Below, in pieces: positions 43,195 to 54,480 of a DNA stretch of 64,000 bases. A program made the translations under genes and the position numbers. Source of the stretch: Methylophilus sp. (GTDB lineage Bacteria > Pseudomonadota > Gammaproteobacteria > Burkholderiales > Methylophilaceae); contig JAUYRP010000012.1 in assembly GCA_030696695.1 (NCBI GenBank), forward strand, positions 1-64,000, written 5' to 3'. The notes under the pieces were generated by a model that worked only from the letters and a program-made list of their open reading frames with translations, did no database searches and was not told the origin of the DNA. Position 1 is the first letter of the stretch. The number at the start of each line of letters is the position of its first letter.

Positions 43195-44397
43195 ATGGCA
43201 GTTTCTGACAGCACTCTACCCCAAAAAATCCTCACGGTAACCGAGTTAAACCGTCTTGCACGAGAAGTGCTCGAGATGAGTTTCCCCTTGTTTTGGGTGA
43301 GTGGGGAAATTTCCAATTTCACACGGGCTGCATCTGGTCACTGGTACTTTTCACTGAAAGATGCTGGGGCACAAGTACGTTGTGTCATGTTCAAGGGCCG
43401 CAACAGTTATGTCGACTTTGTGCCGCGCGAAGGCGATAAGATAGAAGCACGCTGTACGGTCACCTTATATGAAGCCAGAGGCGACTTTCAACTGACTGTT
43501 GAATTTGTGCAAAAAGCTGGTTTAGGTGCTTTATTCGAAGCGTATGAGCGCTTGAAACAAACACTGGCTGCACAAGGGTTGTTTGATGTTGCCAACAAAA
43601 AATCCATTCCTCAATACCCAAAAGCGATTGGTATCATCACTTCTGCTGACGCGGCTGCTTTAAGGGATGTACTCACCACGTTAAAGCGTCGCAATCCCTC
43701 CATATCAGTTGTGATTTACCCAACCCCTGTGCAAGGCAAGGGGGCAGCGCAGATGATTGCCAATGCCATTTCGACAGCGAGTCAACGTAATGAAGTCGAT
43801 ACGCTCATTGTGTGCAGAGGCGGCGGCAGTTTAGAAGACTTATGGCAATTTAATGAAGAAATTGTTGCGCGTGCTATTTATGACAGCCATATTCCAGTGA
43901 TCAGTGGTGTTGGTCATGAAACCGATTTTACCATTGCTGATTTTGTGGCTGACTTACGTGCAGCAACGCCCACTGCTGCCGCTGAATTAGCCTGTAGCGA
44001 TATGCTGGCTATGCGCAATCAAGTACTCATGCTGAGTAAATCTATACAGCAGCGATTACAAAAACGCATGCAGTCTGAAGCGCAACGCCTAGACTATTTA
44101 ACGAGGCGCCTGATCTCCCCCGCTCAAAAATTAGAGACCTCAAGAAATCATTTATATCAGCTGAAATTAAGAATGGTGGCAGGTGTAGAAAAGCAACTAC
44201 GCGGACATCAACACCAACTGCTATCGACTGCCGACCGATTACGGCTACTTAATCCAAGTGAAGTACTCAACAGAGGCTACGCCATTGTTAAAGACATGGA
44301 GCAGAATGTCATCTCTGATAGCCAACAACTTAACCCTCACCAACTCATCGAAATTACGTTTGCAAAAGGATCATTAAAAGCGAATATTTTAAAATAA
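43195..44397 (+). CDS. xseA: Exodeoxyribonuclease VII large subunit
   Basis: 400 residues. An N-terminal OB fold (about 14-110, with VSGEISNFTRAASGHWYFSLKD) is followed by the nuclease domain (GIITSADAAALRDVLTTLKRR, the segment VCRGGGSLEDLWQFNEE and HETDFTIADFVADLRAATPT), a coiled coil and the GYAIVKD C-terminal part. It is shorter than the E. coli protein (456) mainly in the coiled coil and tail. Its small subunit xseB is not in the window. Confidence 0.94.
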   Translation: MAVSDSTLPQKILTVTELNRLAREVLEMSFPLFWVSGEISNFTRAASGHWYFSLKDAGAQVRCVMFKGRNSYVDFVPREGDKIEARCTVTLYEARGDFQLTVEFVQKAGLGALFEAYERLKQTLAAQGLFDVANKKSIPQYPKAIGIITSADAAALRDVLTTLKRRNPSISVVIYPTPVQGKGAAQMIANAISTASQRNEVDTLIVCRGGGSLEDLWQFNEEIVARAIYDSHIPVISGVGHETDFTIADFVADLRAATPTAAAELACSDMLAMRNQVLMLSKSIQQRLQKRMQSEAQRLDYLTRRLISPAQKLETSRNHLYQLKLRMVAGVEKQLRGHQHQLLSTADRLRLLNPSEVLNRGYAIVKDMEQNVISDSQQLNPHQLIEITFAKGSLKANILK

Positions 44398-44504
44398 TAA
44401 TGGCCCAAATGAGCTATGTATAACACTTTACAGATAGTGGTTATTATGCAAATATCTAGTCAATTATTAATATAAATATTACTAAAATTGAGAGGGCATA
44501 ACTA

Positions 44505-45344
44505 ATGTCGTCCGCTGCAAAATCACTTGATTACACAAACCTAAAAAAACAGTTCTCTGAAAATGGGTACGTGCTTTTAAAACAGTTTTTTTCTGATGCA
44601 CAAATGCCTGCATTGCTTGATGCAATTCAAAAAGCTAAGCCCGCAGAAGGACAAGGCGGACTATCTAAAGGCACCATGCAGTTCCGTAGCAATCTGTTTT
44701 ACAACAGCCCGTTTATTCAATCATTCATTAGTCAACAAAAGGTTGTTGATTTTTTACAAAACATTATCGGCAAGGATTTTTGGATTCGCTGGGATCAGGC
44801 TGTCGGCAAAGGGCCACGCTCTCCTGTTTTTCCATGGCACCAAGATAACGGTTACAACGAACTAGCATGTGAACACTTTCAGTTTTGGATTGCTGTAACT
44901 AAATCTACGGCCGAAAACGGCACCATTGTCATCGTACCAAAAAGCCATCTAAACGGCAGACTAGGCCATTATTATGATGGCAAGCATACATGCTATACAG
45001 GCAATGTTAAAGACGAAATCATGATTGAGGCAGAAGCAGGCGATGTCTTATTATTTTCATCACTCACCTTACACAAAACGCTACCAAACATAACAGATGA
45101 CGACATCCGCTGGGCCTATGTACTAGAATTTATGTCTATTGAAGACTACGACCCAAGTGTACCTAGCCCCTACTTTCAAGTGTCTAAAGAAGGTAAGCCA
45201 TTTGGACAATTCATTCAACAGCATCCTGCAAAAAGCATTTTAACTGACTTGCAATATCACCTTAAAAAACTCAAAGGGCCGTTAAGGGCTGCAAGCAATA
45301 AACTCAAAAGCTTGGGTTCGACTAGAGTGCCGTCTTCAACATAA
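44505..45344 (+). CDS. Phytanoyl-CoA dioxygenase (PhyH) family protein
   Basis: 279 residues, Fe(II)/2-oxoglutarate oxygenase. The facial triad is visible as His112-x-Asp114 (WHQDNGYNE) and His190 (LTLHKTLPN), with an Arg a dozen residues later (RWAYVLEF) for 2-oxoglutarate. A strong GAGAGG precedes the ATG. The substrate cannot be told; bacterial members modify secondary metabolites, fatty acids or small amines. The C-terminus is rich in Lys/Ser. It borders a gene-poor tract and is not in an obvious operon. Confidence 0.88.
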   Translation: MSSAAKSLDYTNLKKQFSENGYVLLKQFFSDAQMPALLDAIQKAKPAEGQGGLSKGTMQFRSNLFYNSPFIQSFISQQKVVDFLQNIIGKDFWIRWDQAVGKGPRSPVFPWHQDNGYNELACEHFQFWIAVTKSTAENGTIVIVPKSHLNGRLGHYYDGKHTCYTGNVKDEIMIEAEAGDVLLFSSLTLHKTLPNITDDDIRWAYVLEFMSIEDYDPSVPSPYFQVSKEGKPFGQFIQQHPAKSILTDLQYHLKKLKGPLRAASNKLKSLGSTRVPSST

Positions 45345-45732
45345 AAATTGTTGGGTGTTACCGGTATTTTTGACACTCTGTAATAGCGGTTAGTCCACTT
45401 GCGTATGCCGTTTGGCATCAATGCGCTAATTTAAAAATGCTTTTCATTAGTATTAGAGGATATCGATACTTACTAGCTCCATCTACAGTTTGCTACGCCA
45501 ATTCCTCTGCTCCCTATTTAACCATCGACGTCACAACCTAACTGCACTCCAACTAGATGCTATAAAACAAGCTGGCGTGCAGCTTGTAAGCGAGCTTACT
45601 TTTAAAGCAAGGCCGTGCGAAGCGCTTTTTGTCTCATTCGCGATGCGTAACATTTTTATTTCATTTCCCCCGCCAATACCTTTAGCAAAGGTTAATTACC
45701 ACTCACATAATTAAATATACTACTGTATATTA
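45345..45732. other. Gene-poor intergenic tract with hairpins
   Basis: No ORF here has a good start, ribosome-binding site or recognisable sequence. Two short hairpins lie next to each other at 45568-45599, and a third (ATGCC-GTTT-GGCAT) at 45405-45418. No T-run marks a clear terminator. It may hold a small RNA or decayed sequence. Confidence 0.5.
45568..45599. repeat. Two tandem hairpins in the gene-poor tract
   Basis: CAAGCT/AGCTTG encloses seven bases. It shares its last base with GTAAGC-GA-GCTTAC, which is followed by TTTT. The second stem plus T-run could act as a weak terminator on plus. Confidence 0.4.
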
Positions 45733-45837
45733 TTGAACAAGTGTATAATTAAACCCACCCTAAAGCTCGTGCTCATATTCGTAGCTGCTATTGGGTTAAG
45801 CATCCTAAGCTTGATTTATTCGCGCAGTAAACCTTAA
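45733..45837 (+). CDS. Possible 34-aa single-helix membrane peptide
   Basis: From a TTG the frame gives 34 codons, mostly a hydrophobic helix (KLVLIFVAAIGLSILSLIY) ended by SRSKP, with a basic start. The helix plus positive ends has the look of a real membrane peptide, and it ends 19 bp before the lipoprotein gene. The start is uncertain, there is no strong ribosome-binding site, and 34 codons can arise by chance. Confidence 0.25.
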   Translation: MNKCIIKPTLKLVLIFVAAIGLSILSLIYSRSKP

Positions 45838-45856
45838 ATAAAAAGATAATTACAAC

Positions 45857-46273
45857 ATGATGAATTTAAACAAATCTACCTTATCCTTAATTAGCACAGT
45901 GACCTTTCTCACTGCTTGCGCATCAACACCTCCTCAAGTTGCAAACAAAAAAACTTACAATGTTTCAGGTCAGGAGTTAATATTTGGAGGGATTTTTTAT
46001 CCCGATAAAAATCAACTAACTATTACAGTAAATGACGACTCAATCATGAAAGGATCATTTCCCCCATTTACACCAACTAAAAATTTTCAAAGCAAGTACA
46101 AAGATATACCGATATCTGCACATTGCTATTTTGGGTCTGTATTGAGCTCAAAGGGGGGCGCATTTGGTATTGTGGCAGAAGCTATTCAATCCAAAAAAGG
46201 AGTTAGCTCAGATAAATGTGATATTTCAGTAAATTCAAAACAAGTGGAAACTTTATATTTTTATTCTTTATAG
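45857..46273 (+). CDS. Small lipoprotein of unknown function
   Basis: 138 residues. A signal peptide ends with a lipobox (LTAC, Cys21). The mature part is beta-rich, ends in VETLYFYSL, and contains one more Cys pair (HCYFGS and DKCDIS) that may form a disulfide. No family recognised. Codon use is more AT-rich than in neighbouring core genes, consistent with accessory or recently acquired DNA. Bases 46274-46468 after it hold nothing I can support. Confidence 0.75.
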   Translation: MMNLNKSTLSLISTVTFLTACASTPPQVANKKTYNVSGQELIFGGIFYPDKNQLTITVNDDSIMKGSFPPFTPTKNFQSKYKDIPISAHCYFGSVLSSKGGAFGIVAEAIQSKKGVSSDKCDISVNSKQVETLYFYSL

Positions 46274-46468
46274 TAGATATTGTTTGAAATGCCTTTAGCG
46301 TAAAAAGCACCTAATAACTTCAGCCCAAAATAATTCTTTGGACTTTACCCGTTTTAGTAAACGTTCACTGACGTCTAGCCTCTAGCTTGCCATGACACCC
46401 TCACTTAGGGGGTTGTGCTGGTAAGCGGTAATCGTATTTTTGTTAGTTTTAGTTTGCACTGCGGTTAG

Positions 46469-47551
46469 CTAATTTAATGTGTTGTTGTTTTCTATATAGC
46501 TGGTATCGCCATTCTCACGCACAAGGTTTTCAAAGCCTTCTATGGTGTTGCCTTCTATCAGTACATCTTTGGAATCAAGCAGATTGATGGCGACTGGCGC
46601 TTTGCCACTAAATAAGCCGCCTTTGTAAATAATGCGGTTGTTACGAATGATGCCGCCTTGGGCGTCGCGCAGTTTGATGGGGGCAGATTGTATATTGGTT
46701 TTTTTGCCTTCATGCCAAATAGAATCATATCTTATAGATCCATTAGGATTTTTACCGTTAGGAATCCGTTCATAACCCCGACCTTTTAGATAAAACTCCC
46801 CCTCTCCTTTGCCATAAATAACGATGGTATTGTTTTCGATAATAGGATTAGGGCCATACATGTAAATTGCCGTGTGTCCATCAACTTCAATTATGCTGTT
46901 GCGGATGACATTGCCAGAACCACTTACTTCCGCGCCTCGCTTAATTGAAAAAACATTGATACTATCAATGAGATAATCTGTATTTTGATATTTAGGCGGA
47001 TTATTTTTTACCTTTAGTTTTGAAAATGGCATATCTTCAAACTCCTCTGAAGAGAGGTCTCGATTATCGTCCCGTCCCACAGTCCAAACACCACTAAAGC
47101 CACCATATAGCTTAATTCCTAAATGGACGTCTTTAATTGAGCCATTTTGGATTCTTGTTCTGTAAGCTCTTCCTATAAAACCCACCCCTGTTTTTGATTT
47201 ATGGCTAAGGGTGTGTTTCTGCAAATCAATATCAAAAACGGGACCATCACCTGGCTTAACGTAAATAGGATTAATATCGAAAAGCCCTCTGCCTTCATGT
47301 GGCTCACTTGGATCGTAAGTTTCAATTATGAACAATCCACTGCGGCCATTTGATTTCCAACCACCTTCTGAAATCACAAAATTATCTTGTAATTTGACAT
47401 CACTTTGTAAGCAATACCTACCGGGCTTTTGAATAACGACAGGCTTGTTGTCATGTGGACTCTCATTGGCTTTAATATTGGTGCATTCATTTGCAAGAGA
47501 CGAACGATATTCAAATACTAACAATATTATTAAAACAACTCTAATTAACAT
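46469..47551 (-). CDS. Exported right-handed beta-helix protein
   Basis: 360 residues. Signal peptide about 1-20 (MLIRVVLIILLVFEYRSSLA). From about 200 to 345, repeated rungs with the N-x-I/V pattern (GNVIRNSIIEVDG, PIIENNTIVIYG, GGIIRNNRIIYKG, DVLIEGNTIEGF) are typical of pectate-lyase-like beta-helices. No clear lyase/hydrolase acidic cluster is seen. It follows the RHS gene by only 12 bp, so it is likely made with it, as a surface partner, polysaccharide binder or periplasmic immunity protein. Confidence 0.85.
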   Translation of the reverse strand: MLIRVVLIILLVFEYRSSLANECTNIKANESPHDNKPVVIQKPGRYCLQSDVKLQDNFVISEGGWKSNGRSGLFIIETYDPSEPHEGRGLFDINPIYVKPGDGPVFDIDLQKHTLSHKSKTGVGFIGRAYRTRIQNGSIKDVHLGIKLYGGFSGVWTVGRDDNRDLSSEEFEDMPFSKLKVKNNPPKYQNTDYLIDSINVFSIKRGAEVSGSGNVIRNSIIEVDGHTAIYMYGPNPIIENNTIVIYGKGEGEFYLKGRGYERIPNGKNPNGSIRYDSIWHEGKKTNIQSAPIKLRDAQGGIIRNNRIIYKGGLFSGKAPVAINLLDSKDVLIEGNTIEGFENLVRENGDTSYIENNNTLN

Positions 47552-47563
47552 AATTGGACTCGC

Positions 47564-50500
47564 TTACTTACAGGTCGTTGGCAAAATCGTGCCTTCATAG
47601 ACCTTTTGGTCTAACGGTTTGCCGCTATAACATAAATAACTAGCGCGATTACTGGCGGCTTGGGTTTCGTTATAAGCAGCCGAATTTAAATCTTTAATAT
47701 TGATTATCCCTTCCCCAAACAATTTATTTAGCTCTTCTTGTAATTTTTCAATTTTTTTACCTAAGGGTGGACTTTTCTCATAACCACTATCCTCATGTTC
47801 TTCAATCGCATTAAACTCCTTGAGTAATTGGTAGAAGGCTTGCTCGCTGATCTTACCTTGGGTAATCACATCATCACCAGTGGCGTATTTTTTCATTTCC
47901 AAAAACACAAGTAGCTCCATGCTGTAGGTGCGCGATTCGTTATTATCCCAATTGGCAATCGGTAATAATGACCAATGGTTGTAAGTATAATCCGGATGGC
48001 TATCATAGCCGCCATGACCAAAGCCAACATTCAGAGCAAACGGGTTGTTGTTTTGATCTCGATGCGCAAAGGTGTCCTGGAAGGCATGCATATATTCTCC
48101 AAATAGTTGAAGGCCAGCATTTTTACTCACGCATTTCTCCGCTGTTTCTGAGGCTTTTAGTAAGCGTGTCAGTTGGTCGTTAGTTGGTCTGACGCCTGTG
48201 TTGGTATCTACAGATGGGTTGCCATACTCTCCCACCCTGCCCGATACCTTGCCAGTGTCTGGATCTATTTTGATATCTTCAATAGCAGTAAAGTGATAAG
48301 TGAGTAAACGTGCTCTATGTTCATCGGTAATGCCACTTGATATGTTGAGTGGTTCTGTATCTGGATTATCATCTATATACTGCGTCGCCAGCGCAATTGT
48401 CCTCGCATCGTCCGCAGGCACGCCTGCAGCAACAGCTAAAAAGAACGTCATGTAATAGTGAATATCACTTTGGTATAAGCCTAGTGGGTCTAGCTTGTTA
48501 AGTGGGTCATTATTCACATACGCATAAGGGTCAGCACCATCAGGGAAGCCGAGTGGGTCTGGGGTTAAGTACCTGCCAGTGTCTGGATTGTAATCACGTT
48601 GGTAGTTGTAATATAAACCTGTGGCTTGGTCTTGCCATTGGCCGGGTAGGCGAAGGTTCATATTAAACTGACTGCTTTGTTCTTGATGGTTGATTTGTAT
48701 AAGTATGCCCCATGCATCATATTCCGCCTGCCAAATAACCTTGCCTTGTTCATCGGTTGCCATCATTGGGGCATGGCGTCTATCGGTGTGGATAGCGATA
48801 ACACCCTCTTGATTGGTGTCACTTGATGCTATCGGTGTGTTAATCAAAGCAACAGGGGTTTGATTGACGTACAGATATTGTTGAATCACGTTTCCTGCTT
48901 CATCCAGTTCGGCAATACGCTTTTGTTTGTCGTATACATAGTAGCGGGTTTGGCTTGCGTTGCCTTGGCTAGTTGATGTTGGGTAACTCACCATCACGCG
49001 CTCACCTAAGGCGTTGCTTTGGTAGCTGGCGATGGTTTGTTGGTTGGCTTTGTTTTGCACACTGGCGAGTTTACCCCATACATTATATTGATAGCGATAG
49101 TGCTGATCAGCTGTGGTTCTTCCTGCTTGGTCTAGTGTTGTTTCTGCCGTGTCTGCATAGCTGAATCTAGCTTTGGGTATTCCAGCATCCATATTGTTGT
49201 TTGGTGTTGTGCTGACCACTGCTTTGATAAAGCCAGACTTTGGTGGGGTTGAGAAGTTATTCCAGCCTGTGTAAGCATATGCTTTAAACTTGCCTTGTAT
49301 ATCCGCTGTGCTGATTTGCTCTGAGATAAGGCGTCTGCCTGCGTCGTAGGTATAGCTGGCTTTGATGAACTGGCTATTCGTGTTGCTGTTTTGTGGTTGT
49401 TTGCTGTGCGATACGGTGGTTAAGCGCCCTGCCAAATCAAAGTCATAGTGATCACTGAACCCGTTGCCATGGGTTAGTTGGGTAATGCCATTAAAAGGGT
49501 GGACTTTAATATCAGTGACGACTGGTTGTTTGGTGGCAATCTGTAGAGGTAAATCGGGTAGATTGAACCAGATTGCTATCTTGTTGGTTAAGCTAGGCCA
49601 GATAGTGCGATGAATTGTCATGGCTTTTGTTAAGCCTGTTTGTTCTTCAAGGCTAAAGACGAGCCAATCACCATTGATGAGTTGCTTGGCTTTAACCTGT
49701 CCATCTAGGGTGTAACGTGTACGGATATGGTAAGTTTTTGCGTTGCGATTTTTAAGTATAAGGGTAGTCGCTTTACCAATCTCACGGCCTAACAGGTCTT
49801 GGATAAACGTAAGCGTTTGTGTGCTGTCTTTGAGTTGTCTAAGCCCAAACGCATTGTAAGAATAAGTGACTGAATCACTTGCCTTAGACTTTGGCGCTTG
49901 TGCTGTTTTCGTTAATAAGCGACCAGCTATATCATAGGTATACTGAATGCGCGTACCATCGGCTTGTTGTATGTTAGTAATGCGATTGGCATCATTGTAT
50001 TGTGCAATATGCGTACCGTGTTGAGGGCTACTAAATAATATCGCACGACCAAAGTCATCTAACACTTGCACAGGTTGATTGATAGGTTGCTGATTACTAT
50101 GACTGCTTGTTGCTGAGGTGTTAACCGTATTAGCGTTCAATATAAAGCTTGCATCAAGATAGCCAGCAGGAGTCGCGCGAATTTGTACGCTTCCTTGGCT
50201 ACTAACGGCATTCAGCGTCATGCGATTCAGTGGGTCTATGTGTTGCACCCAATTGGCATCATTAGCCGCTTCTGCTTGCAATGTTTGCTCTGTATCGCTG
50301 GCTTTACGATCAGCATAACGCCATGTGTCGACCCCACCATCAGGACTTAAGCGTTGCGAGAGTCTGTTTTGATTATCACGCCAGAAGTACCATGCTCGCG
50401 CTACCGTGTCTGGGGCGTCAGCAGTAAACCATTGTTGTGTGGTTACCGTCTCACCTTGTTTTAAACTTCCCTTAGCCCAGTCTTTCCACTCAACACGATT

Positions 50501-53035
50501 CCCTAAAGCATCTCTCATCGCAATCAATTTGCCATCAACACCATATTGCAAGTGTATTGCTTGGCCATCTGCTCGTTTAATCATGGTGTTATTGCCAAAG
50601 ACATCGTATGCCATCGCTGTACTTTGCAATAAGCCTGAAGCTTTGGCGGTGCCTAGATTTAAAGATGCAGGGTAACGTTGCGTTGAGATGACTTTTCCAG
50701 AGTGATTATAATCATAGCTGTAGGTAATACTATTGTTATCTATCTTATTTACCACCCTCCCCGTGCCACCCGTCATTGCACTAGCATGAGCTTCCCCCTG
50801 TTTATCGTATGTAAGTTGGGTGATGATATTGTTTGGGGCGATGATTTTAGTGAGGTATTGGCCCAACTTGTCATACTGGTATTGCGTAACATCACTGTCT
50901 TTAGGTGTGTTGGTTTCTCCATTAGGCAATGGGCCATCCACACTGCTGAGTAAACTACGGTTGTTGATCATGCGATAGCGGTAATCTATATTACGGCTGA
51001 TGGCGATGCCCTGTATTTGTCCATTACTTTTAACATCGCTAGGTAATGCTGGGCGGTAACCTGTCTCTTTCTTCTGCAAAGGCTGACCCAATTGATTGTA
51101 GGTGATATGCCATTGATGTTCGCGACCAGCGACGACACTGGGTTTTGCAATGAGACTAGGTTCGCTAAACACTTGTACTGGTTCTTGCACAGCACGTTTA
51201 GCGGTGTTGAGTTGCGGAAAGCTTGGCGTGCTTGGGTAGGCGTAACGTATCTTAAGTTGAGGGGGTAGTGCTTTACCTTGGTCGTATTCAATGCTAGAAA
51301 TTCGGATGATACGGCCAATGCTATCGTATTCAGTCTGCGTGGTGTGCAGGCCTTGTAATACGGTTTTATCTTTGGCAATAGCTTTGCCAGATGTATTGGT
51401 ATTATTTGGTTTGGTTGCCTGTGACACATGGCTTTGTTGCAACGCTTTAACTTGCGTGACATGGCTTAGCCGGGCCAGTTTATCGTAGCCGTATACGACG
51501 TTGGTCTCTCCGCATTCTGTACATCCAGCACCCACTACTTGTAATAACCGATGCTCACCTGCAATTAGGGTGTAGTTGTATATCGTAGTCTGCCCTAGGC
51601 TATTGGTAAGTATGGTTTGACCTATTTGGCCATTGTGCGAGATGCGTGGGTGGTGGTGTGTGTTTTTTTCTGGTGGCGTCCAAACACGTATTGCTTTGGC
51701 AGGTCCAACTTGATAGCGCAAATTGACCTGTTGTACCCCCGTGTTTGCAATGGCATTGCCATTGGCGTCTAATTGCTTGGGCAGGCCATGCACACTTAAA
51801 ATGCCACGGCCCAGTGCATCGTACCCCCAAGTGCGTATACGCTGTGTTTTTGCGGCATTGCCCTCTTGCCAGGCTAGGCTAATACCCGTGAGCAAATGTG
51901 CGGCTTGTGGGATAGCAGGACTGCGTGTTGCATTTGCCATTTTGGGTGCAATGTAAACCGTTTCACCATAATGGTAGTACTTTACTAATGCATGCTGTAG
52001 TGGTGTTTGCCCAATTATTTTTTGAACATCTGTTGCTGGATATTTTACTTGTGTGAGATTACTAATGCCTTTGCTCTTTGGCGCATTTTCATGGCTATAG
52101 TGATAACGACCTACTGGGGTATCAATGGCGACAATGCCTTTAAAACCGGCTTGACGCTTATCAGCGTAGTGCATGATCAAACTGCGCCCCTGTGGATCGG
52201 TGACTTTAAGTAGCTCGCCTTTTAAACCACGCGTGAGATGCACACTTTCTCCAGAAGGCGCTGTAATACGTGTTAATTTACCCTGGTGATTAAAATGCAA
52301 TTGTTTACCATTTAGCCAAAACCAAGTGTATTCATCCCCTTTGGCCGTGTGGTAGATCATGACATGGCCTTGCGCTGGATTTTGGCAAGCACAATCACTG
52401 GGGTTAATACTGCTACGGTTAAATATAATGCGGCTACCATCGGCCTGTGTGATACGTAAGGTATTGTTCACCACTTGCAAATCAGTTTCATAGCTTAAGC
52501 GCCAGCCATAGCCAATCTGCCCCAGCCCCATATGCAGGCTGTTGTAGTGCCGCACAACTTCTATACCCATCAAGCCAGGGAGGGCCGGCAAATCTTCTTC
52601 TCTTTGGTACTTATTGCCAGTAATGACGTTGATGGGGTTGCCCGCACCTAAGTTGGTTTGGCTTTGATTACTTTGACTAGCGACATTGTGTTCACCGCAG
52701 CTGGGAGAGCCTGTGTTGCCTGTGCACGCCGCAGTACCCGTAGGGTTGGGTGCTTGGCTATTCGGGATGCCTATGGTCTCTAAAATACTAGGCTGGGCAT
52801 TGGGATCTGTACTGACGCTAGGTGCTTGCGTGGTCTGCCCACTTGTATCAGCGGCATGAAGCTGTTGACATGGGAACGCCAACACCATGAGCAACATCAG
52901 AAAATATAGGCATTGGGTGATCACTAGACGAGTTGGAGCATTGTGTTTCAGCATAGATAGTGGTGCGAACATAGTGAGCGTGGGTCTCAAAGCATAGGGT
53001 ATTGAATATGGAAATAACGCGGGGTATTTAGTCAT
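47564..53035 (-). CDS. Exported RHS/YD-repeat protein with DUF6765-like C-terminal domain
   Basis: 1823 residues from the ATG at 53035, which overlaps the upstream gene by 8 bp. A later ATG at 52954 gives a cleaner signal peptide (MLKHNAPTRLV, hydrophobic core, LHAADT). After a Thr/Pro/Ser region, NPINVITGNKYQREEDL starts a DUF6531-like head. Dozens of YD/RHS repeats follow, then the RHS-associated core (YLTPDPLGFPDGADPYAY, then DPLNKLDPLGLY) near residue 1485-1515. The last ~300 residues begin DIHYYMTFFLAVAAG and include GEYMHAFQDTFAHRD and a His/Asp-rich GHGGYDSHPDY region, like DUF6765/zinc-phospholipase folds. Probable cage-type toxin; target unknown. Confidence 0.9.
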   Translation of the reverse strand: MTKYPALFPYSIPYALRPTLTMFAPLSMLKHNAPTRLVITQCLYFLMLLMVLAFPCQQLHAADTSGQTTQAPSVSTDPNAQPSILETIGIPNSQAPNPTGTAACTGNTGSPSCGEHNVASQSNQSQTNLGAGNPINVITGNKYQREEDLPALPGLMGIEVVRHYNSLHMGLGQIGYGWRLSYETDLQVVNNTLRITQADGSRIIFNRSSINPSDCACQNPAQGHVMIYHTAKGDEYTWFWLNGKQLHFNHQGKLTRITAPSGESVHLTRGLKGELLKVTDPQGRSLIMHYADKRQAGFKGIVAIDTPVGRYHYSHENAPKSKGISNLTQVKYPATDVQKIIGQTPLQHALVKYYHYGETVYIAPKMANATRSPAIPQAAHLLTGISLAWQEGNAAKTQRIRTWGYDALGRGILSVHGLPKQLDANGNAIANTGVQQVNLRYQVGPAKAIRVWTPPEKNTHHHPRISHNGQIGQTILTNSLGQTTIYNYTLIAGEHRLLQVVGAGCTECGETNVVYGYDKLARLSHVTQVKALQQSHVSQATKPNNTNTSGKAIAKDKTVLQGLHTTQTEYDSIGRIIRISSIEYDQGKALPPQLKIRYAYPSTPSFPQLNTAKRAVQEPVQVFSEPSLIAKPSVVAGREHQWHITYNQLGQPLQKKETGYRPALPSDVKSNGQIQGIAISRNIDYRYRMINNRSLLSSVDGPLPNGETNTPKDSDVTQYQYDKLGQYLTKIIAPNNIITQLTYDKQGEAHASAMTGGTGRVVNKIDNNSITYSYDYNHSGKVISTQRYPASLNLGTAKASGLLQSTAMAYDVFGNNTMIKRADGQAIHLQYGVDGKLIAMRDALGNRVEWKDWAKGSLKQGETVTTQQWFTADAPDTVARAWYFWRDNQNRLSQRLSPDGGVDTWRYADRKASDTEQTLQAEAANDANWVQHIDPLNRMTLNAVSSQGSVQIRATPAGYLDASFILNANTVNTSATSSHSNQQPINQPVQVLDDFGRAILFSSPQHGTHIAQYNDANRITNIQQADGTRIQYTYDIAGRLLTKTAQAPKSKASDSVTYSYNAFGLRQLKDSTQTLTFIQDLLGREIGKATTLILKNRNAKTYHIRTRYTLDGQVKAKQLINGDWLVFSLEEQTGLTKAMTIHRTIWPSLTNKIAIWFNLPDLPLQIATKQPVVTDIKVHPFNGITQLTHGNGFSDHYDFDLAGRLTTVSHSKQPQNSNTNSQFIKASYTYDAGRRLISEQISTADIQGKFKAYAYTGWNNFSTPPKSGFIKAVVSTTPNNNMDAGIPKARFSYADTAETTLDQAGRTTADQHYRYQYNVWGKLASVQNKANQQTIASYQSNALGERVMVSYPTSTSQGNASQTRYYVYDKQKRIAELDEAGNVIQQYLYVNQTPVALINTPIASSDTNQEGVIAIHTDRRHAPMMATDEQGKVIWQAEYDAWGILIQINHQEQSSQFNMNLRLPGQWQDQATGLYYNYQRDYNPDTGRYLTPDPLGFPDGADPYAYVNNDPLNKLDPLGLYQSDIHYYMTFFLAVAAGVPADDARTIALATQYIDDNPDTEPLNISSGITDEHRARLLTYHFTAIEDIKIDPDTGKVSGRVGEYGNPSVDTNTGVRPTNDQLTRLLKASETAEKCVSKNAGLQLFGEYMHAFQDTFAHRDQNNNPFALNVGFGHGGYDSHPDYTYNHWSLLPIANWDNNESRTYSMELLVFLEMKKYATGDDVITQGKISEQAFYQLLKEFNAIEEHEDSGYEKSPPLGKKIEKLQEELNKLFGEGIINIKDLNSAAYNETQAASNRASYLCYSGKPLDQKVYEGTILPTTCK

Positions 53036-54416
53036 TGAAGTTGTCGTAGACGGAGGTGAAGGTAACGCGTCTATCTGGTGCGCAGTTGGCAATATTTGCT
53101 GTGGAATTGACTTCGGTACAAGTACCATTGGTGGTAACAGGTGTAGTCTCACCCGCACCTTTGGTGATCATATCGATATCAACGTCGGCATCTAAGCCTT
53201 GTAAGAGATATTCATACACAGCATTGGCACGCTGTTCAGATAAGGTGAGATTGTCTGCATGGTTGCCAATTTTGTCGGTATGCCCTGTGATGTAGAGCTT
53301 ATCTCGACGATGTGCATCGTTTTTATGCGCATTAATATGTTGAATGAGCTTATCTAAAGCGGCTTTACCCTGCGCAGTCAACGTGTATTCATTAAAAGCA
53401 AATAACACTTCTGCTTGTATGCTTTCTTGCGTGGTATCTGGCAAACATGGATCTGGTTCAGCACCACAGCTAGCGTCTGTTGCAGCATCACAAGGTATTT
53501 CCTCACCAGCATCTTGCTCATGACAGTTGGGGTCACTCTCTGGGCACGTGTCATTCCCTGTGGTCGGTCCATCCTCGCCACCCACCTCTTCAGGAGGGGT
53601 AGCCGCGCCGTTATTCCCAGTGCCTGAACTACTCACATTGCCATTCTCAAAAGGTTCTGATTGCATGCGCATCGTAGTGTGCATGACTATCGGGATGCGT
53701 CCTTGCGCGAGCAATGCTTGTTTGAATGTATCTGAGTCTGCCACGCTCATTACGCTTTGACTCAAACCAAGCATGCTGGAGGACTCGCCTTGTATACCCG
53801 ATAAGCCTTGTAGCACTTTGACGTAGAGTCTGCCAACCAATGGCACTTGTTTTGTAGGTGGGATGCCGTAGGTAATGCGTACCTTGAGTAGGTTGGCATC
53901 ACTTAAGGTTTGCCCAGATTTATTGGTACTGGGGTTGTAACTACAATTGGGCCGATCAAGTGGACAATTGATGGCATTGAGGTTGCTGTTGGGAATGACG
54001 CGGTGATTGACCTGCAACCTACTTGCCAACTGAGGGCTAGCGTAATCATCAAAGCTCTCTTTGGTAGGCGATAGGAGCTCAACTTGCATGGTGGCAGGGG
54101 TGATATCGGCCTGAGCACGTGCTGTGGCTTGTGCTATTTCGGTTAGGTTACGCCCTCCGCCGTAGTAACCCACCATTGCACGTGTAAACGCATCTCGAAT
54201 AACAGATGCTTGGCCATGCCCAACCGTGCCGGCCCGAGCCGCTTCAAAGGTGGCATAGTTGATATTGCTCTTTGCATGAAACACCAAACCAGTCTGCATG
54301 ACACCCAATATCATCATCAGCAAGGTTGGGGCAACGACTATAAACTCGACTAAAGACGCACCTTTTTGCTTAATTGCAGATGGTTGTGTTAGGGATGCGT
54401 GAACGCGCCAAGGCAT
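53028..54416 (-). CDS. TadE-like prepilin / OmpA C-terminal domain fusion protein
   Basis: 462 residues. A prepilin-type N-terminus, KG-ASLVEFIVVAPTLLMMI, has a glycine before the cut and Glu at +5, with TadE-type VFHAKSNINYATFEAARAG. A middle part of unknown fold (about 60-270) is followed by an acidic Cys-rich linker (about 275-325) and an OmpA domain (about 328-460): LFAFNEYTLTAQGKAAL, then ITGHTDKIGNH and LSEQRANAVYEYL, retaining the Asp and Arg that bind diaminopimelate. So it combines pilin-like secretion with peptidoglycan anchoring. It overlaps the RHS gene. No other tad gene is in the window. Confidence 0.88.
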   Translation of the reverse strand: MPWRVHASLTQPSAIKQKGASLVEFIVVAPTLLMMILGVMQTGLVFHAKSNINYATFEAARAGTVGHGQASVIRDAFTRAMVGYYGGGRNLTEIAQATARAQADITPATMQVELLSPTKESFDDYASPQLASRLQVNHRVIPNSNLNAINCPLDRPNCSYNPSTNKSGQTLSDANLLKVRITYGIPPTKQVPLVGRLYVKVLQGLSGIQGESSSMLGLSQSVMSVADSDTFKQALLAQGRIPIVMHTTMRMQSEPFENGNVSSSGTGNNGAATPPEEVGGEDGPTTGNDTCPESDPNCHEQDAGEEIPCDAATDASCGAEPDPCLPDTTQESIQAEVLFAFNEYTLTAQGKAALDKLIQHINAHKNDAHRRDKLYITGHTDKIGNHADNLTLSEQRANAVYEYLLQGLDADVDIDMITKGAGETTPVTTNGTCTEVNSTANIANCAPDRRVTFTSVYDNFND

Positions 54417-54438: not shown

Positions 54439-54480
54439 TATACATCTGTATATTATAGATATTTATTATACAGATGTATA
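54439..54480. promoter_or_regulatory. Tandem dyads TATAC-N4-GTATA upstream of the TadE-OmpA/RHS unit
   Basis: Two 14-bp dyads (54439-54452 and 54467-54480) are each self-complementary in their arms and are exact reverse complements of one another, centres 28 bp apart. The minus-strand spacer carries TATAAT, a -10-like box. They lie 23-64 bp before the start codon of the fusion gene: a plausible paired operator for a repressor. Confidence 0.65.

Follow-up and report, generated by a model that had tools for sequence, protein, structure and literature searches.

The three-gene locus

The window analysed in this work, a stretch of 64,000 nucleotides from a Methylophilus sp. genome (contig JAUYRP010000012.1, assembly GCA_030696695.1), carries at positions 46469-54416 three minus-strand genes, identified from the open reading frames (ORFs) of the window and a domain search, that encode a TadE-OmpA fusion, an RHS protein and a beta-helix protein. 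A first-pass annotation of the same DNA had described these genes as almost certainly a single transcript with exported products and had suggested a surface-anchored effector or adhesion system. The trio was examined for its layout, its regulation together with Tad pilus genes, its distribution and the probable function of its products. The features considered are the following (window coordinates).

53028-54416, minus strand: gene 1, TadE-OmpA fusion, 462 aa (ORF and Pfam)
54234-54362, minus strand: TadE (PF07811), residues 19-61 of gene 1, E = 3.7e-13 (Pfam)
53112-53405, minus strand: OmpA (PF00691) C-terminal domain, residues 338-435 of gene 1, E = 1e-17 (Pfam)
53028-53035, minus strand: overlap of genes 1 and 2, 8 nt, ATGACTAA (read from the sequence)
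47564-53035, minus strand: gene 2, RHS protein with a Sec-like leader, 1823 aa from ATG (ORF, Pfam and NCBIfam)
48476-48721, minus strand: end of Rhs_assc_core, with the autocleavage consensus PxxxxDPxGL (NCBIfam)
47564-48475, minus strand: C-terminal tip of gene 2, 303 aa, DUF6765 (PF20551), predicted zinc phospholipase C/S1-P1-like enzyme (Pfam and alignment)
47552-47563, minus strand: gap between genes 2 and 3, 12 nt (read from the sequence)
46469-47551, minus strand: gene 3, right-handed beta-helix protein, 360 aa, PF13229 (1.9e-7), in the immunity position (ORF and Pfam)
54439-54480, no strand assigned: paired palindromic operator, TATACATCTGTATA at 54439-54452 and TATACAGATGTATA at 54467-54480, 23-64 nt upstream of gene 1
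54452-54480, minus strand: promoter-like site, TATACA, 17 nt, TATAAT, overlapping both operator halves (consensus match only, 10/12)
45857-46273, plus strand: lipoprotein-like gene, 138 aa, LTAC lipobox (by eye), probable regulon member (found in 3 of 61 genomes)
45716-45747, no strand assigned: degenerate operator pair (1 and 2 mismatches) upstream of the lipoprotein-like gene (pattern search)

The coordinates and both junctions reported earlier were reproduced; in the ORF list the RHS frame starts earlier, at a GTG at 53158, which would extend its overlap with gene 1 to 131 nt. The export signals claimed for all three products are likewise present, judged by eye and with no predictor: a prepilin-type leader (KQKG/ASLVEF) in the TadE segment, a Sec-like leader (...QQLHA/AD) that follows a long N-terminal stretch in the RHS protein, and a leader ending in ...SSLA/NE in the beta-helix protein. 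Between 46000 and 55000 the minus strand has no listed terminator-like site, and promoter-like sites are no more frequent than expected by chance, with 13 on the two strands compared with 19.1 in shuffles. The trio would be one operon read as one transcript, and the earlier proposal of a single exported effector unit gains support from its linkage in all three genomes that possess it, the window's included. The set of genes named at that time holds for the trio and omitted a fourth, the lipoprotein-like gene at 45857-46273. The G+C content falls to 38.5% at 46-48 kb, where the beta-helix gene and the tip-coding end of gene 2 lie, compared with 45-48% at 48-54 kb, which would fit an exchanged module; the preceding block at 44-46 kb is also low (39.6%), with the lipoprotein-like gene inside the low-G+C stretch 44001-48000, so that this is a weak hint.

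With its TadE match and prepilin-type cleavage motif, the product of gene 1 is best explained as a minor pilin to which an OmpA-type domain has been added. The same fusion was found in the two other genomes that carry the trio (G001 and G012, below), and the TadE frame of G252 (L106) likewise has an OmpA match. The peptidoglycan-binding anchor proposed earlier corresponds to the OmpA domain match alone, by which the protein may be held at the surface. A defence system was considered and set aside, its sole matches being those of ZorB (MotB) to the OmpA domain.

Shared operator, Tad locus and distribution

The inverted repeat before gene 1 was found to consist of two TATACANNTGTATA palindromes. 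Exact copies of TATACANNTGTATA number 4 in the window's own genome (G000, 2.98 Mb), 3 in G001 and 5 in G012, where about 0.31 per genome would be expected (first-order model, window's composition), and all 12 lie in promoter regions of trio, Tad/flp, TetR or lipoprotein genes. Two, one and one of these sites (G000, G001 and G012, respectively) stand at the trio promoter, and each genome has two others ahead of flp, where the Tad locus begins; in G000 and G001 these fall between flp and a neighbouring, divergently oriented TetR gene. In G012 one site lies at a separately placed TetR gene and one at the orthologue of the lipoprotein-like gene of the window. The 19 other genomes of the genus hold 2 exact sites in total and G022 holds 0, and a reversed control pattern gave 0 sites in 23 genomes. 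The second half-site at the trio has one mismatch in G001 and in G012, and the lipoprotein gene is preceded by a pair with 1 and 1 mismatch in G001 and by the one exact site in G012; the degenerate pair of the window is by itself not beyond chance (6 sites at up to two mismatches in the window, against 3.94 expected). The complete operator table comprises 19 sites, 12 of them exact, six with one mismatch and one with two. Since exact or degenerate sites are common to their promoters, the trio, the Tad locus, the TetR gene and the lipoprotein gene very probably form one regulon. The TetR protein (TetR_N match of 1.5e-7 in G000; the G001 and G012 proteins are 88% and 83% identical to it) probably binds these operators, to judge from position.

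The Tad locus of G000, on contig 32, comprises flp-like, TadG-like, TadE2, CpaB, RcpA, FHA-TadA, TadB and TadC genes, named by similarity to those of G012, so that the pilin, ATPase, TadB/TadC, secretin and CpaB that characterize a Tad system occur together in one locus. The absence of an Flp pilin, indicated by the lack of a PF04964 match in G000 and G001, was rejected, as a divergent Flp-like pilin below the PF04964 cut-off opens the Tad locus in G000, G001 and G012. Divergent Flp-like pilins under this cut-off were seen at L060 6018-6275, L142 707-985 and L143 near 6661, and PF04964 searches miss this Tad class because its pilins score too low. In G012 about 2.2 kb separate tadC from the trio downstream of it, a stretch that holds a DUF192 gene and a gene on the opposite strand, and the upstream Tad genes encode an Flp-like pilin, TadG-like and TadE-like proteins, CpaB, RcpA, FHA-TadA, TadB and TadC. 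DUF192 genes adjoin tadC or TadE in G012 and on a Moraxella plasmid, by eye also the TetR gene in G012, and at L057 9662-10849 a DUF192-like N-terminus appears, again by eye, to be fused to TadE.

In the two other carriers the trio stands apart from the Tad genes. It is found on contig 6 beside kup in G000, and in G001 on contig 6 between hda-like and FAD-dependent dehydrogenase-like genes, with TadC on contig 11. At the site on contig 2 of G000 (L046 5011-5373) that corresponds to the operon site of G001, 198 nt that are 78% identical to the promoter and TadE start of the G001 operon join directly 62 nt that are 84% identical to the end of the lipoprotein-like gene following the trio in G001. 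This scar indicates that a copy probably once stood there and was deleted.

The distribution was determined in the window's own genome and 60 relatives (61 genomes, 55 of them with at least 90% completeness and at most 5% contamination; G001 is 88% complete). Both parts of the TadE-OmpA protein were matched in 3 genomes (some match in 54, mostly to OmpA alone), the RHS protein over nearly its full length in 3 (some match in 15) and the beta-helix protein in 3, with none in the other 58. The carriers are the same for all genes, namely G000, G001 and G012, or 3 of the 22 genomes of the genus, and they are also the three that hold the lipoprotein gene. Because the gene order is the same in all three carriers among 61 genomes, the linkage is more than chance, and the scattered, unlinked homologues that would have spoken against the first-pass annotation were not seen in this co-occurrence search. 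The TadC of G012 has relatives above 70% identity in the same three genomes alone, the next best being at 45%; some TadC-like match occurs in 20 of the 61 genomes and G012 has a further PF04964 match above the cut-off at another place, which points to further Tad-like systems in the group.

A profile of the three TadE-OmpA proteins, searched against genome contigs, returned five loci, two of them those of G001 and G012, and an RHS gene directly follows TadE in 5/5. The other three, from a Thauera metagenome-assembled genome (MAG) and two more betaproteobacterial MAGs, combine Tad genes, a TadE without OmpA match and an RHS gene, the last cut by the contig end in two of the three. Outside the order, a plasmid of Moraxella bovis carries CpaB, a pilus-assembly N-domain protein in the RcpA position, an ATPase, two T2SSF proteins, DUF192, TadE, RHS and a next gene; it was the one Tad-RHS locus obtained in plasmid searches with three queries, and among the 20 of 56 records listed for one query the other 19 matched the OmpA part. 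The Tad-linked RHS proteins bear variable C-terminal tips on a common RHS core. The three regulon operons have DUF6765, the Thauera MAG (L054) has a Tle1-like phospholipase (PF09994, 6.6e-21), and the tips of G091 and Moraxella give no Pfam match over the cut-off. A PF09994 tip also occurs on an RHS protein of G045 that is not beside the Tad locus. From the position in G012, the shared operator and these TadE-RHS pairs at other Tad loci, the trio appears to be an outlying part of a Tad pilus regulon instead of the separate surface system first suggested.

A wider draw across the order (399 genomes) gave 42 genomes with a TadE of the window class at E 1e-12 or better. At least 3 kb could be read downstream of TadE at 35 places, that is, at 33 of 40 loci plus the window and G045, with seven loci (L099, L101, L109, L115, L116, L120 and L136) dropped for a shorter stretch and three further TadE places (G182, G382 and G085 C31) outside the count. 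Several of the weakest places (L130, L132, L134, L135, L136 and L137) have no other Tad gene in the stretch read. RHS genes were sought by blastp with three RHS cores, a search by which divergent RHS could be missed. Behind the TadE of G252 (L106) the RHS is spread over several frames, in G085 it lies 4.5 kb from TadE, and in G130 (L098 17189-17623) a short RHS-like frame stands just upstream, not downstream, of TadE at a contig end.

The RHS tip and the gene that follows it

The RHS protein shows DUF6531, RHS repeats, RHS and DUF6765 (8.2e-16) in Pfam and Rhs_assc_core in NCBIfam, and thus has the repeat and core of a polymorphic toxin. The core ends in PLNKLDPLGL (residues 1511-1520), in agreement with the autocleavage consensus PxxxxDPxGL as quoted in a passage of PMC8765631, and the tip begins immediately after DPLGL with YQSDIH. 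In G001 (L041) and G012 (L042) the RHS genes contain in-frame inserts like SLRxxRGNPNQ just before the RLPGQWQDQATGL block, which are reminiscent of translated dispersed repeats; the RHS copy of the window is without them.

The enzyme tip that had been considered possible can now be named as DUF6765. In an alignment of seven sequences, three RHS tips and four free-standing proteins, eight residues were invariant in 7/7 (H6, D35, H61, H130, D134, H138, H154 and D162 in the numbering of the window tip), with no further invariant His or Asp. The order H-D-H-H-D-H-H-D(/E) is that of the ligands in zinc phospholipase C and S1/P1 nucleases, and DUF6765 reproduces all eight positions. Weak matches to PF00882 (Zn_dep_PLPC) were obtained for 3 of the 7 members, with a best E value of 0.017. 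Taken together, the residue pattern makes a zinc-dependent, lipase-like tip likely. The Pfam model of DUF6765 starts at MQxDxH, in the same register as YQSDIH, in three of the four free-standing members; the remaining one has Met-His at its very start. According to a passage of PMC5201275, S1 nuclease holds its zinc by the N-terminus of the chain together with His and Asp residues. Because the tip starts in register with MQxDxH and the N-terminus is a zinc ligand in S1, self-cleavage could complete the active site; in two of the three MQxDxH members the open frame continues upstream of the Met, so that the true N-terminus is uncertain and this part of the reading is weakened. A further RHS protein with a DUF6765 tip was observed in G460, from another family of the class (L138 503-6316), and no Tad genes were recognized by eye among the ORFs of at least 150 aa in the 14 kb read there.

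The beta-helix gene directly follows the RHS gene in 3/3 trio genomes. At the other Tad-linked loci the next gene encodes a small lipoprotein-like protein (Thauera MAG) or a protein without evident leader (Moraxella); in G460 the contig ends after the DUF6765 tip. A next gene that changes with the tip is the layout of toxin and immunity protein, and it places the beta-helix protein in the immunity slot. That it is the immunity protein is a possible but tentative assignment. It may instead be a polysaccharide-binding or shell-assisting partner, with the lipoprotein encoded at 45857 protecting the cell, a reading that is likewise possible but tentative: the lipoprotein shares operator and genomes with the trio, and most of the beta-helix protein has diverged between G000 and G001 (24-53% identity by block) while the last two blocks are 93% and 82% identical. 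A simple partner role is harder to reconcile with the variation of the gene after RHS, which is a beta-helix gene behind the three DUF6765 tips and something else behind the Tle1-like tip of L054 and the Moraxella tip. The structure model of the beta-helix protein reached a pLDDT of 56, with confident stretches mainly at residues 191-250 and 291-360, and its comparison with the sequences in the PDB gave nothing useful. Downstream of the beta-helix gene, G001 has a lipoprotein-like gene without Pfam or NCBIfam match (L041 3939-4652), by eye a possible orphan immunity gene, and G012 has, at L042 13591-15174 and 15851-16657, two exported-looking proteins and a second TetR-like gene, 56% identical to the TetR of G000.

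Proposed mechanism, alternatives and known systems

On balance, and with moderate confidence, the trio is interpreted as the toxin arm of a regulon that also governs a Tad (type IVc) pilus. It would encode a polymorphic RHS toxin that is exported by Sec, is coupled to Tad and has a lipase-like tip, together with a beta-helix protein in the immunity slot. The TetR-type regulator would control the Tad pilus genes, the trio operon and the small lipoprotein together. The RHS protein would be exported by Sec, fold into a shell that carries a zinc-dependent phospholipase C-like enzyme as its tip, and cleave itself after PxxxxDPxGL. With the Tad machine it would meet a neighbouring cell on contact, where the freed enzyme could attack membrane lipids, and the beta-helix protein, periplasmic or at the surface, would protect the producer or assist the toxin. 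Whether the RHS protein is physically delivered by Tad is close to an even question that leans slightly towards doubt. A fuller version must be regarded as speculative and, as a whole, less likely than not. In it Gram-negative bacteria would use the Tad machine to deliver RHS toxins exported by Sec, a minor pilin of the TadE type would couple the shell to the pilus or the secretin, and self-cleavage would both free the tip and make the N-terminus that completes its zinc site.

Several observations weigh against this interpretation. An RHS gene stands directly downstream at 3 of the 35 TadE places (the window, G252 and G091), most loci of the class having none there, and RHS at Tad loci is a recurrent minority variant. 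The three carriers may share the genes by descent, and their co-occurrence would then not represent three independent events. Neither a prepilin peptidase nor TadZ was recognized in the Tad loci as read, and the rest of the genome was not searched for them. The window tip is not among the three DUF6765 members that match PF00882, a profile search of the tip against PDB sequences gave no convincing relative, and the structure model of the tip was poor (pLDDT of 41) and was not used. The beta-helix protein is less conserved than the tip (45% and 35% identity between G000 and the other two carriers, compared with 83% and 46%), which agrees with immunity only loosely. Finally, neither an experiment nor a publication was seen in which a Tad machine transports an RHS protein.

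Three other explanations were weighed. The products might not serve antagonism at all and might instead be a lipase or adhesion unit at the surface that helps the cell to attach or to scavenge phosphate or lipids. DUF6765 enzymes do occur as free-standing proteins, and OmpA and beta-helix domains are frequent in envelope proteins; RHS shells with differing tips and next genes are the layout of polymorphic toxins, and a unit without antagonistic function is considered improbable. The RHS protein could also be an effector of a type VI secretion system (T6SS) with an incidental TadE link, as RHS toxins of that kind are well described, for instance in passages of PMC8765631. The Sec-like leader argues against it, as does the distribution of TssC (PF05943, the only T6SS family searched), which was not found in G000, G001, G012 or the genomes of L054 and L057 (5 of 8 tested; G001 is only 88% complete). 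The three others, G252, G091 and the genome of L055, do have TssC. As no TssC was found in the three carriers, delivery by a T6SS was rejected for them and is considered extremely improbable.

The explanation nearest to the preferred one holds that the RHS protein is co-regulated with the Tad pilus and not delivered by it, reaching the surface by another way and acting like the large myxobacterial signal-peptide RHS toxins, while the pilus only brings cells together. RHS toxins with signal peptides that act independently of a T6SS have been described (PMC10433427, in the passages available), and in G000 and G001 the trio operon and the Tad locus lie apart. The TadE gene directly before RHS in 5/5 close relatives and in the Moraxella Tad locus, in turn, suggests a physical partnership, and co-regulation without delivery is regarded as a lesser, if serious, possibility. 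The toxin arm of the Tad regulon, with its coupling to the pilus, is retained as the preferred interpretation. Delivery by Tad, if true, would be a new export route, and two questions would meet in it: how large signal-peptide RHS toxins leave Gram-negative cells without a T6SS, and which toxins act with Tad pili. As the operator is kept with the operon even away from the Tad locus, the link between Tad and toxin is directly testable.

Among the papers listed from the open-licence PMC literature, judged by titles, the beginnings of abstracts and passages, none appeared to describe a Tad-RHS link; Tad/Flp pili and RHS are both named and listed apart in passages of PMC3735071 and PMC4943601. No paper naming DUF6765 was found in the same literature. 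RHS toxins and Tad pili are each known, and their pairing in a regulon with a TadE-OmpA protein and DUF6765 was not met in the papers listed.

Among known systems, zinc phospholipase C and the S1/P1 nucleases (PF00882) resemble the tip in the order of His and Asp residues and in the weak matches already given, and differ in that DUF6765 has no significant sequence match to them and the window tip none. The N-terminal zinc ligand of S1 is a further likeness (PMC5201275, in part). The Tle1-like phospholipases of the T6SS (PF09994) are lipase tips on the Tad-linked RHS protein of Thauera and the unlinked one of G045, and the DUF6765 tip of the window is of a different class by its residue pattern. 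The RHS effectors of the T6SS, such as RhsA of Pseudomonas protegens (PMC8765631, in the passages available), share the shell, the PxxxxDPxGL motif and the C-terminal toxin; unlike them, the RHS protein of the window has a Sec-like leader, no listed PAAR family (Pfam) and Tad partner genes, and no TssC was found in its carriers. The Kil Tad pilus of Myxococcus xanthus (PMC12075869, PMC8460266) offers a Tad machine, minor pilins with extra domains and contact action on bacteria, and PMC12075869 links Tad pili to killing on contact, minor pilins serving as tips that can be exchanged. The review PMC10433427, which also describes signal-peptide RHS toxins with no need of a T6SS, states that the Kil effectors are unknown, and the term 'rhs' has 0 occurrences in the main text of PMC12075869. 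The Kil Tips are minor pilins with variable domains, whereas in the window the minor pilin gene is followed by that of an RHS toxin bearing a Sec-like leader of its own. The myxobacterial signal-peptide RHS toxins and WapA-type proteins, in the passages of PMC10433427, are similar in signal peptide, size and independence from the T6SS, and the RHS protein of the window is set apart from them by its apparent co-regulation with Tad genes and by the TadE gene that precedes it.

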